A stretch of 64,000 nt of DNA from Verrucomicrobium spinosum DSM 4136 = JCM 18804. Lineage in GTDB: Bacteria; Verrucomicrobiota; Verrucomicrobiia; Verrucomicrobiales; Verrucomicrobiaceae. The DNA is taken from the NCBI RefSeq assembly GCF_000172155.1, contig NZ_ABIZ01000001.1, positions 558,001 to 622,000 on the forward strand, given 5' to 3'. Both the position numbers and the translations under genes were made by a program. Below are positions 24,919 through 28,685 of this stretch, one piece after another. The notes beneath the pieces are model-generated. The model saw nothing but the letters and a program-made list of their open reading frames with translations. It did no database searches and was not told where the DNA came from. Each line of letters begins with the position of its first letter. Within the stretch, counting starts at the first letter, position 1.

Positions 24919-27462
24919 TCAGTCCAGCTTCATCGGCGGCGGCGGGGCCAGCTTGATCGGAGTCGTCTTTTCCTGTGGGTCTTCGACCGGAATGGCCCGC
25001 TGCACCGTGGAGCCGTCTTCCAGCACGGGTTCGGCCCGCAGCACGGGTTGCACCGTGTTGTAAGGGTCGGCTCCCAGCACAGTGAGCCCCTTCATGCGAA
25101 CAGGGGAGACGTTGGCCACCTCCGGTGCCTGGGTGACGAGTTGCTCCTGGATGGTGGCGGAGCCGAGCCCGGCAATGTCATCGCGCAGTTCGCCGTTGCG
25201 GTGCAGGTCGCAAAACACATCGAAGTTGGACCGCTGGCGCAGGGCCTCGCGGTAGGTGTTGCGGACGGCGCGGATTTTGCCGGTGGCCGGGTCAGGGATC
25301 TTGTCGTAGCAGGTGTCCAGTGCACGCAGTCCGCTGCGGCGGCACACTTCCACCATCTGCATGTCGTGGGGCGGGAGAATTTCCTCCGGCTTGTAGTCCT
25401 TGATGGAGGCATTCATCACGTCCGCCCACATGGGCAGGGCCACCTTGTTGCTGAAGGCCCCTTCATAGATCTGTTTCTGCTGGTCGAACCCGCACCACAC
25501 ACCGCAGGTTACTGCGCTGGTGTACCCCACAAACCAAAGGTCCTTGAACTCATAGTGAGTGCCCGTCTTGCCTGCGGCAGGGAAGTCCTTGAGACCGTAG
25601 TCGTCGTAAGCCTTCTTGCCCGTGCCCTGGCGGAGTGCGTCCACCAGGCAGGAGTGGGTCTGATAAGCGGCCACTTCATCCATGGCCTCCGTCAGCACTT
25701 CTTCATCCTGCTTCACCTGGAAGATCACATTGCCGCCGTGGTCGGTGATGCGGTGGATGATGGAAATCTTCTTGGGACGCATGCCTTTGTTCGCGAAGGC
25801 GCTGTAGGCCAGACACATCTCGTCCAATTTCACCTCGCTGGCTCCGAGGAAGGAGCTGGGGTAATCGCGAAGCGGGGATTTGATGCCAGCTCTCGTGACG
25901 AGGTCCTTCACTGCGGGCAGTCCCAGTTCAAGTCCCAGACGGGCGGTGGCGGCCGTGCGGCTCTGGCTCAGGGCTTCGCGGGCGGAGATGCTGGTGCCAT
26001 ACACCAGGCGGGCATCCTGCTCCGTGCCCCACTCTCCCAGAATGCCCTGAAGGCCGCCGATCATCACGTAGCGGTTGTCCAGCGGGCCATCCTTCAGGCG
26101 CTGGGGAGGGAAGTAGTCCGGGCTCTGGAATGCCGTGGCATACACAAAGGGGAGGAAGGCCGTCCCGGCAGGGCGGCGGGACTGCACCGCACGGTTGAAC
26201 ATGCTGTCCACAAAGTCACGCCCGCCCACCATGGCCAGCACGCCGCCATCGCGGTTGTCGATCGCCAGCACCGCCGTCTGGAGGTATTCCGGTTGGGGTT
26301 TGGGCGTGTCTTCTGGAATGGTCTTGGCGTTGATCCTCTTCTTGTACTCCTCCAGCAGGGCGCGGTAGTAGGAGAAGGTCTGGTGTTTGTAGCCCGGGGT
26401 GCTTTCCACCTCCTCCATGCGTGTCTTGACAGAAGCCTCGGCCGTCCGCTGGAGCTGGCCATCGATGGAGGTGTAGATGTTGAACCCGCCGATTTGGGCC
26501 GCCTCCTCACCAATGATGGCGATGGCCTGCTGGCGGATTTCTTCATAGACGTAGCTCAGGCGATTGTCCGTGGTGCGGGGGGAGGTCACTACCGGCTGGG
26601 CGGAGAAAGTGTCGCGCTCATCCTTTGAGATGTAGCCCTCCTCGTACATGCGATCCAGCACGTGGTTGCGGGACTTCTTGGAGCGCTCTGGGTGGCGCAG
26701 GGGCTGCAGATTGTTGGGACTCTTGATCAGGCCGCAGAGGGTGGCGCTTTCCAGCAGGGTGATGTCGCGCACTTCCTTGCCAAAGTAGCCTTTGGAGGCC
26801 GCCTGGATGCCATAGAAACCGGCACCAAAGTAAATGCGGTTCAAGTACATCTCCAGGATCTCGGACTTGGAGTATTTCTTCTCGATGCGCTCGGCTGCGA
26901 ACCACTCCACGATCTTGCGTTGATAGCGGGAGTTCTTGTCGGTCGTCTCCATCTTCTTCAGGTCGAAGGCGCCACGCGCCAGCTGCTGCGTAATGGTGCT
27001 TGCGCCCTGATTCTCTTCGCCCGCCTTGTAGTTCAGCCAAATGGCGCGCAGGATGCCCATCACATCCACACCACTGTGCTGGAAGAACCGGGAGTCTTCC
27101 GCGGAGGTGAGGGCCTGGATGAAGTGCATCGGCACGTCATCCACCTTGATGGGCGTGCGGTTTTGCACGTAGATCTTGCCCAGTTCCTCCCCCTTGCGGT
27201 CCATGATGCGGCTGGCGACTTCGATCTTCTGGAGATCTGTGATGTCCAGGGACTCGGCCTGCTCCTGAAGCGGGGCTAGGATGGCCATGATCATGCCGAA
27301 GGCGGTCACACCGATGATGAGCGTCACCACCACGAGTGCGCCGAACCATCCGCGCTTGTAGATCGGCACCCGCCGCCGGACGTTGCCCCCCTTGCCCGGT
27401 GGGCGGGGAGACTTGCTCTTCATCAAGCTGCGGGCAATGGGATTGACTTCCTGATCGGACAT
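24919..27462 (-). CDS. Class A penicillin-binding protein with degenerate transpeptidase site
   Basis: 847 residues. A basic cytosolic tail and one membrane helix (about 40-62) precede a GT51 glycosyltransferase domain with intact motifs: EDSRFFQHSGVD, QGASTITQQLARGAF, AERIEKKYSKSEILEMYLNRIYFGAGFYGIQAAS. It should polymerise lipid II into glycan strands. The transpeptidase fold follows, but where SxxK is expected the sequence is GTAFLPFVY (T434, L437), and SxN reads SRT (501-503). Only KTG (632-634) is kept. Cross-linking and beta-lactam binding at this site are therefore doubtful. It is divergent from midA, with overlapping promoters. Confidence 0.92.
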   Translation of the reverse strand: MSDQEVNPIARSLMKSKSPRPPGKGGNVRRRVPIYKRGWFGALVVVTLIIGVTAFGMIMAILAPLQEQAESLDITDLQKIEVASRIMDRKGEELGKIYVQNRTPIKVDDVPMHFIQALTSAEDSRFFQHSGVDVMGILRAIWLNYKAGEENQGASTITQQLARGAFDLKKMETTDKNSRYQRKIVEWFAAERIEKKYSKSEILEMYLNRIYFGAGFYGIQAASKGYFGKEVRDITLLESATLCGLIKSPNNLQPLRHPERSKKSRNHVLDRMYEEGYISKDERDTFSAQPVVTSPRTTDNRLSYVYEEIRQQAIAIIGEEAAQIGGFNIYTSIDGQLQRTAEASVKTRMEEVESTPGYKHQTFSYYRALLEEYKKRINAKTIPEDTPKPQPEYLQTAVLAIDNRDGGVLAMVGGRDFVDSMFNRAVQSRRPAGTAFLPFVYATAFQSPDYFPPQRLKDGPLDNRYVMIGGLQGILGEWGTEQDARLVYGTSISAREALSQSRTAATARLGLELGLPAVKDLVTRAGIKSPLRDYPSSFLGASEVKLDEMCLAYSAFANKGMRPKKISIIHRITDHGGNVIFQVKQDEEVLTEAMDEVAAYQTHSCLVDALRQGTGKKAYDDYGLKDFPAAGKTGTHYEFKDLWFVGYTSAVTCGVWCGFDQQKQIYEGAFSNKVALPMWADVMNASIKDYKPEEILPPHDMQMVEVCRRSGLRALDTCYDKIPDPATGKIRAVRNTYREALRQRSNFDVFCDLHRNGELRDDIAGLGSATIQEQLVTQAPEVANVSPVRMKGLTVLGADPYNTVQPVLRAEPVLEDGSTVQRAIPVEDPQEKTTPIKLAPPPPMKLD

Positions 27463-27512: not shown

Positions 27513-28685
27513 ATGGCGAATGCAATCCCTCGGGTCCCGGAACTGCTTCTTGAACGGCTGGCCAGTGCCCCGGGAAAGGTTGCCCCCTGGGCGGAGGTGA
27601 TGCAACTCGCTCTGTATGAGCCACTCGTGGGATACTATCGCCAGGGGGTGCGCCGGATCGGGCGGGGCGGCGATTTCTACACCAGTGTCAGCGTGGGCCC
27701 GCTCTACGGTGAATTGCTCGCGGAACATGCCACTGGCGTGTGGACAGCCGCGGGGTGTCCGGAGCGGTTCGCCGTCCTTGAGCAGGGGGCGCATGATGGC
27801 ACACTGGCCCGGGACTTGGTGGAAGCCGTGCACCGTCATCACCCGGAACTGGCGGTCAGTCTCAGGTACGTCATCATTGAGCCCGATGAGACCCTTCGGG
27901 AGGCTCAGCAGGCCCGTTTGGGGCCGGAGTTTGCGGCTCATCTGAGCCACGCCGCGACTTGGGCGGAAGTCCCGGAAGTTCAGGGACTCCTGATCTGCAA
28001 TGAGTTGCTGGATGCCTTTGCCGTTCATCGGATCGAGTTCACCTCCGAGGGGTGGAAGGAGCTGCATGTGACCACCCGTGGGGATGGGGCGTTCGAGTTT
28101 GTGCAGGGGCCGCCCTCTACACCGGGCCTGCAGGTCGAGCTGGAGCGCCTTGGCAACGATTTCCCCATTGGCTTTGTCACTGAGCTGAATGTGGCCATGC
28201 TGGGCTGGTTGGCAGAAGTCTCGCAGAGCGCCTTCACTGGCGAGATCCTGCTGGCTGACTACGGGCATGCTGCCAGGGAGTACTACATTCCAGAACGCAA
28301 TGGCGGGACCCTCCGGCGCTACTGTCAACACCGGACAGATGACCGGGTGCTGGAGAATCTCGGCGAGGCCGACCTTACGGCCCATGTGAACTTCACCCGT
28401 CTCGCAGAGCAGGCCGTTGCGCTGGGAATGACGGTGATGGAATTCATTGAGCAGGGCCGCTTTCTCACGCACGTTGCGGCGCACTTGCTCCGTCGGCCTG
28501 GGTTTTCACCGGATCCCGCCTGGCTGCGCCAGTTTCAAACGCTCACCCATCCCGGGCACCTCGGTCACGCCTTCCACATCCTTGCGCTTCAGAAAGGCGG
28601 CTGGGAAAGCAAGGCAGAGCCTGACGCGGGCCGCCGGGCGGCTGCGTTGCGCAGACTTGGCATGGAGTCCGCTCCCATCCACTAG
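27513..28685 (+). CDS. MidA/NDUFAF7-family SAM-dependent methyltransferase
   Basis: 390 residues from the ATG at 27513; an earlier in-frame start is less likely because it overlaps the promoter. Features of PF02636: PWAEVMQLALYEPLVGYYRQG and GRGGDFYTSVSVGPLYGELLAE at the start, the SAM-binding VLEQGAHDGTLARDLVEA, the acidic-end VIIEPDETLREAQQARL, and LLICNELLDAFAVHRIEF. The mitochondrial homologue methylates an arginine of NDUFS2 in complex I assembly; the bacterial substrate is not established. It lies 10 bases before psd, so the two are co-transcribed. Confidence 0.88.
   Translation: MANAIPRVPELLLERLASAPGKVAPWAEVMQLALYEPLVGYYRQGVRRIGRGGDFYTSVSVGPLYGELLAEHATGVWTAAGCPERFAVLEQGAHDGTLARDLVEAVHRHHPELAVSLRYVIIEPDETLREAQQARLGPEFAAHLSHAATWAEVPEVQGLLICNELLDAFAVHRIEFTSEGWKELHVTTRGDGAFEFVQGPPSTPGLQVELERLGNDFPIGFVTELNVAMLGWLAEVSQSAFTGEILLADYGHAAREYYIPERNGGTLRRYCQHRTDDRVLENLGEADLTAHVNFTRLAEQAVALGMTVMEFIEQGRFLTHVAAHLLRRPGFSPDPAWLRQFQTLTHPGHLGHAFHILALQKGGWESKAEPDAGRRAAALRRLGMESAPIH

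Follow-up and report, generated by a model that had tools for sequence, protein, structure and literature searches.

The window (the whole 64,000-nucleotide stretch of Verrucomicrobium spinosum DSM 4136 DNA analysed here) encodes a class A penicillin-binding protein (PBP), A1, in which both the serine and the lysine of the SxxK motif are replaced. Comparison of its homologues indicates that A1 is an old and real variant of the class A PBPs, clade-wide in two orders, and that its cross-linking half has probably been repurposed and not simply left to decay. Class A PBPs are the textbook bifunctional targets of penicillin, and the serine and lysine of their SxxK motif are treated as fixed; a natural, clade-wide exception would show that polymerisation and cross-linking are separable inside one protein.

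Architecture of A1 and register of its motifs

The features of the window referred to below are as follows:
24919..27462, minus strand: class A PBP gene A1, 847 aa
26647..27192, minus strand: GT51 glycosyltransferase domain, residues 91-272 (PF00912, E 1.8e-60)
25513..26274, minus strand: transpeptidase-fold (TP) domain, residues 397-650 (PF00905, E 4.4e-13)
26152..26163, minus strand: T434-A-F-L437 at the SxxK position
26020..26079, minus strand: residues 462-481, a stretch specific to the clade, in the place of the W/Y-x-P-x-N element of other class A PBPs
25954..25962, minus strand: S501-R-T503 at the SxN position
25561..25569, minus strand: K632-T-G634, the third motif (KTG), its K and G invariant in 129/129 A1 rows
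25552..25554, minus strand: clade-specific Y637, after KTGT, Tyr in 121/129 A1 rows
27513..28685, plus strand: divergent neighbour, Methyltransf_28 SAM-dependent methyltransferase (PF02636, E 2.5e-55)

A1 joins a GT51 domain to a TP fold, as judged by PF00912, PF00905, a structural model and a fold search, and thus belongs to the class A PBPs. The TP domain scores 49.6 bits against PF00905 (cut-off 22.1), which places it in this fold with a weaker match than that of the GT51 domain. Against the PBP1A family model TIGR02074, nearly all of which is covered, A1 scores 476.4 bits, below the cut-off of 508.75; against TIGR02070, the model for MtgA-type monofunctional glycosyltransferases, the score is 108.5 bits (cut-off 182.65). 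An AlphaFold model of A1 made with 50 sequences has a mean pLDDT of 84.8 and a pTM of 0.79, the TP domain being mostly confident and residues 469-486 falling below pLDDT 50. A second, weaker model made with seven A1 sequences has a mean pLDDT of 71.3, with residues 463-488 below 50. The best Foldseek match of the A1 model is E. coli PBP1b (5hlb, E 3.6e-41).

An earlier note on this DNA had reported Ser to Thr and Lys to Leu at the SxxK position, and was right to the base, since T-A-F-L occupies codons 434-437 exactly. The alignment to a PBP1A structure that it proposed holds the same register, with SxxK replaced: phmmer sets 'rrpagtaflpfvya' of A1 opposite 'krqpgssfkpfiys' of the PBP1A chain 4oon, and an intact paralogue of the same genome reads RPIGSTVKPFIY at the T-A-F-L site. 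The alignments to PBP1A chains, together with the genome's own paralogue, leave the register no freedom. SRT (501-503) and KTG (632-634) likewise lie where the note had placed them. Measured against an SxxK acyltransferase, A1 of the window has Thr434 for the serine, Leu437 for the lysine and SRT for SxN, and retains KTG. The only other SxxK tetrads in A1, at residues 12 and 542, are poorly conserved (2% and 9% of 129 orthologue rows), which excludes a shifted and conserved motif elsewhere in the protein. A sequencing error is excluded by the orthologues, as Thr434 is present in 119/126 distinct proteins and the lysine is absent at 437 in 103/126. The GT51 motifs, described in the note as intact, are so throughout the clade, with E122, K183 and E186 invariant in 123/123 orthologues; E122 and E186 we take to be catalytic from E. 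coli PBP1b.

A1 is like the bifunctional class A PBPs (PBP1A family, E. coli PBP1b and PBP1A) in architecture, GT51 motifs and TP fold, but differs from them in TxxL, in SRT, in a Gly-rich EWG stretch in place of W/YxPxN and in Y637 after KTGT. N463, G473 and E477 occur in 100% of the 129 A1 rows and are clade-specific with respect to 96 control proteins. Y637 (94% of A1 rows) is found in a fraction of 0.00 of these controls, most of which have N, Q, D or S. Conversely, P480 and N482, present in 99% and 96% of the controls, are lost in A1, with the adjoining W478 kept.

Distribution and history of the replaced SxxK

Orthologues of A1, at least 49% identical, were found in 68/68 genomes of the window's family, some of them cut by contig ends. 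Of 387 genomes drawn evenly from the phylum, 52 matched A1 at E <= 1e-110; at this threshold A1 was found in 44 of the 45 genomes listed for its own order and in 8 further genomes of the class, whose families all fall in one second order. Within this second order about 105/117 genomes have an A1-type match, as judged by E-value (1.5e-131 or better), 8 of the remainder have only weaker matches and 4 have none at E <= 1e-90. Named loci connect the order with a Spartobacteria record that has A1 (L158, identical to L047). Two further records, L160 (titled Akkermansia sp.) and L165 (titled Akkermansiaceae), also contain A1; their nearest relatives among the loci compared are in family f2 of the window's own order. 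Another record, L157, is titled Akkermansia muciniphila, but its PBP shares 81-83% identity with loci from the family of the window, and for this reason the label is probably wrong.

When 30 genomes of the phylum without A1 were picked, 24 had no GT51 match at all, so that part of the phylum seems to have neither class A PBPs nor monofunctional glycosyltransferases. Among the seven PVC species analysed in PMC8406291, Akkermansia alone has a class A PBP that could be identified; the available text of that paper contains no discussion of class A PBP motifs that we could find.

The motif states were taken from 126 distinct A1 proteins, and other counts refer to 123 orthologues or 129 A1 rows. The orthologue comparison in Verrucomicrobiota proposed earlier shows that the oddity noted in a single protein, although real, is actually the state of a clade, the replacement of SxxK being common to most members. 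At residues 434 and 437, 102 of the 126 proteins are TxxX, 17 TxxK, 6 SxxK and 1 SxxL; 119 proteins thus have Thr at residue 434 and 7 have Ser, no other residue occurring there in any of the 129 rows, while Lys437 is kept in 23 and otherwise replaced by any of ten residue types. All seven Ser434 proteins belong to a single genus (code g224). One of them, L141, has Leu for the lysine (SxxL) and represents the fourth possible combination. The TxxK proteins come from several genera of families f6 and f86; SKN is present in 17/17 and KTG in 16/17, the remaining one having KSG.

The second motif has a narrower history than the earlier note implied. SRT does replace SxN in A1 of the window, but this is confined to its close relatives and is not general: residue 503 is Asn in 102 of 123 orthologues, Ile in 15, Thr in 5 and Val in 1. 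Both S and N of SxN are present in 53/126 orthologues, namely in 23/23 members with Lys437 against 30/103 without it (raw Fisher p 7e-11). Coupling between loss of Lys437 and erosion of SxN is nevertheless not claimed, because ancestry confounds this comparison and SxN differs in 0 of 5 independent tree pairs.

By contrast with A1, the Ser and Lys of SxxK are unchanged in 96/96 other class A PBPs aligned, from records that name many phyla. The 80 loci listed in a genome-wide scan include 73 class A PBPs outside A1 that could be read, and 73/73 keep both. Among verrucomicrobial genomes, SxxK, SxN and KTG are intact in 23/23 non-A1 class A proteins (20 A2 loci and three proteins of the window's own genome), and four more (L236-L239) also keep the Ser and Lys. 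A2 (G000:C1:5563549-5565501), from the same genome, is the best-matching class A paralogue of A1, at 40% identity, and is unlike it in that all three motifs are intact.

In a tree built with the motif columns left out, g224 (100/100) is nested among the TxxK members of its family (100/100), and two changes between Thr and Ser at residue 434 suffice, also when an outgroup is added. An arrangement in which the Thr rows form a single clade, with the Ser genus basal, is rejected by the AU test (p 5.5e-5, for a group picked after the first tree had been inspected) and occurs in 0/200 bootstrap trees. When 16 other class A PBPs serve as the outgroup, A1 forms one clade (100/99; 100% of bootstrap trees), A2 is its sister clade (both together 100/99) and residue 434 is Ser outside A1. 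An earlier, quickly made tree with 110 rows, for which two very long branches of paralogues served as the root, had left A1 and A2 in open forks; on that tree A1 would need 2 changes. Thr434 is encoded by ACN, and each of the seven Ser residues by AGC, which a single step separates from ACC. The simplest reading is that Ser gave way to Thr once, on the stem of A1, and that g224 went back to Ser once; many parallel Ser to Thr changes within A1 would cost more steps than the two required. The history of Lys437 involves at least six changes, for whose direction the tree gives no single reading.

Role of the transpeptidase half

The TP domain of A1 is under strong purifying selection, with an omega of 0.021-0.085 in 19/20 close pairs (the remaining pair is saturated); for the intact paralogue A2 the range is 0.011-0.121 (4 pairs). 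The TP half of A1 is somewhat freer than the GT half, since its omega is the higher in 13 of the 18 pairs in which both values are finite; the same is seen in 3/4 A2 pairs.

The explanation that we favour, with confidence a little better than even, is that A1 in the window's lineage is a glycan polymerase whose TP domain has lost SxxK chemistry but persists as a module for binding or control, cross-linking being left to other enzymes. A1 would be a membrane-anchored peptidoglycan glycosyltransferase, the GT51 half of which most probably polymerises lipid II normally. In the window lineage the TP half is predicted to be without SxxK acyl-enzyme chemistry, because the general-base lysine is gone, the threonine nucleophile is hindered and the Asn of SxN is lost. 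Most likely, the TP fold and its pocket would be selected to bind nascent peptide stems or a partner without formation of an acyl-enzyme, and the bound module would then guide or gate the polymerase. The strands made by A1 would be handed over for cross-linking to the intact class A paralogue, class B PBPs or YkuD LD-transpeptidases. The earlier proposal of a glycan polymerase with an altered transpeptidase and a need for partners fits this picture; its plain 'dead', however, is too simple in view of the hydroxyl at 434, the Lys and Gly of KTG, the constraint on the domain, its fixed residues, the 17 TxxK members with SKN and the Ser genus.

An always-kept hydroxyl at 434 and KTG Lys are more than a binding-only pocket requires. 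They raise the alternative of altered catalysis, in which Thr434 would act as nucleophile, with the KTG Lys or clade-specific residues (Y637, E477) as base, perhaps on another donor and blind to beta-lactams. We regard this as unlikely but credible, and as most plausible in the TxxK members. The hydroxyl and Lys632, both present in 129/129 rows, argue for it, as do the near-complete motif sets of TxxK proteins across several genera, the strong purifying selection and the clade-specific residues. The ten non-Lys residue types at 437, however, leave most members without a base there, and of the 103 proteins without this Lys, 23 no longer have Asn503 and 50 no longer have Ser501. We know of no SxxK-fold enzyme with a threonine nucleophile. 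Judged by motifs, genus g224 with its SxxK looks catalytic, as do the TxxK members in which SKN is complete; the window form would be non-catalytic by SxxK chemistry, and altered Thr chemistry appears least unlikely in the 17 TxxK members.

A rather doubtful proposal treats A1 as a lineage of threonine-nucleophile transpeptidases. The threonine would have arisen once on the stem, members with TxxK, SKN and KTG would still cross-link, or catalyse a related acyl transfer, by means of Thr and largely shielded from beta-lactams, other lineages would have lost the Lys and converted the site to a pocket, and g224 would have gone back to Ser. If true, the clade would offer a natural series from serine PBP to threonine PBP to pseudo-transpeptidase, and back.

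It is improbable that the TP domain is a pure scaffold, that is, a spacer with a ligand-free pocket that folds or places the GT domain. A class B PBP with an inactivated Ser is still structural, according to the available text of PMC5656894, and the GT residues of A1 are intact, but the pocket motifs of A1 are among its fixed residues. Moreover, six degenerate class B proteins of the family have the KTG Lys replaced in 6/6 and the Ser in 4/6, whereas A1 keeps the Lys and the 434 hydroxyl in 129/129 rows; A1, which never replaces this Lys, is therefore unlike an abandoned site. An artefact of sequencing or alignment, or a decaying pseudogene that lost its function recently, has a negligible chance of being correct given Thr in 119/126 orthologues, the fixed register and an omega far below 1, with nothing found in its favour; the orthologues and selection rule out the pseudogene reading.

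If the TP domain of A1 is inactive, the activity expected to be shared is that of the MtgA-type monofunctional glycosyltransferases, from which A1 differs in retaining a full TP domain under selection. According to the available text of the two papers, C. difficile PBP1 S487A (PMC12539705) and B. subtilis PBP2B S309A (PMC5656894) have a role without TP chemistry; these are engineered laboratory proteins, whereas the state of A1 is natural, old and clade-wide. In the same part of PMC12539705, C. difficile PBP1 lacking TPase activity still builds septa and growth requires that activity, so that a TP domain cannot in general be inactivated at no cost. A class A PBP with a replaced SxxK was not found in the available text of PMC5147048 and PMC6273383, and no such family was found described in the open-licence literature, outside which most subscription papers lie. 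The exception spans two orders, one of its loci carries the title Akkermansia sp., and A1 opens a test both of a TP role beyond cross-linking and of threonine use in the SxxK fold; its SxxK, TxxK, TxxX and SxxL members provide a natural comparison set. Annotation of A1 members as 'transpeptidase' or 'penicillin-binding' may mislead.

Paralogues, partners and neighbourhood

The window genome (8.22 Mb, single contig) has four GT51 matches and eight TP-domain matches, the latter comprising four class A and four class B proteins. Among the four class A proteins SxxK is missing in A1 only; three of the class B proteins have intact motifs and one (B4) is degenerate. PMC4803751 gives V. spinosum three PBPs of class A and four of class B; in the available text of that paper we found no comment on motifs. 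At least two GT51 matches are present in 23/24 A1-bearing genomes searched. The exception (G394, 97% complete) has a single match, and an assembly gap may account for the missing second one. YkuD (LD-transpeptidase-type) matches number 5-18 in each of the 24/24 A1-bearing genomes, with 18 in the window genome.

B4 (G000:C1:4692802-4694364; L008, L252) is a degenerate class B transpeptidase with ASFM for SxxK and FSG for KTG. Five further genomes of the family contain relatives of it (L253-L257, 926-961 aa) that are likewise without the Lys of SxxK and have Arg for the Lys of KTG. B4 matches at E <= 1e-40 are found in 61/67 family genomes. Among the best 30 B4 loci, 6, each from a different genome, have a degenerate SxxK, and the Ser and Lys persist in the other 24; B4 was rejected as a partner of A1.

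Both orders contain loci in which, as in the window, A1 and a Methyltransf_28-like gene are placed head to head. Of 16 other loci, 8 show this arrangement (L158, L159, L165, L240, L242, L245, L246 and L247), with a PF02636 match in 3/3 of those scanned; a functional link between A1 and this neighbour is possible.
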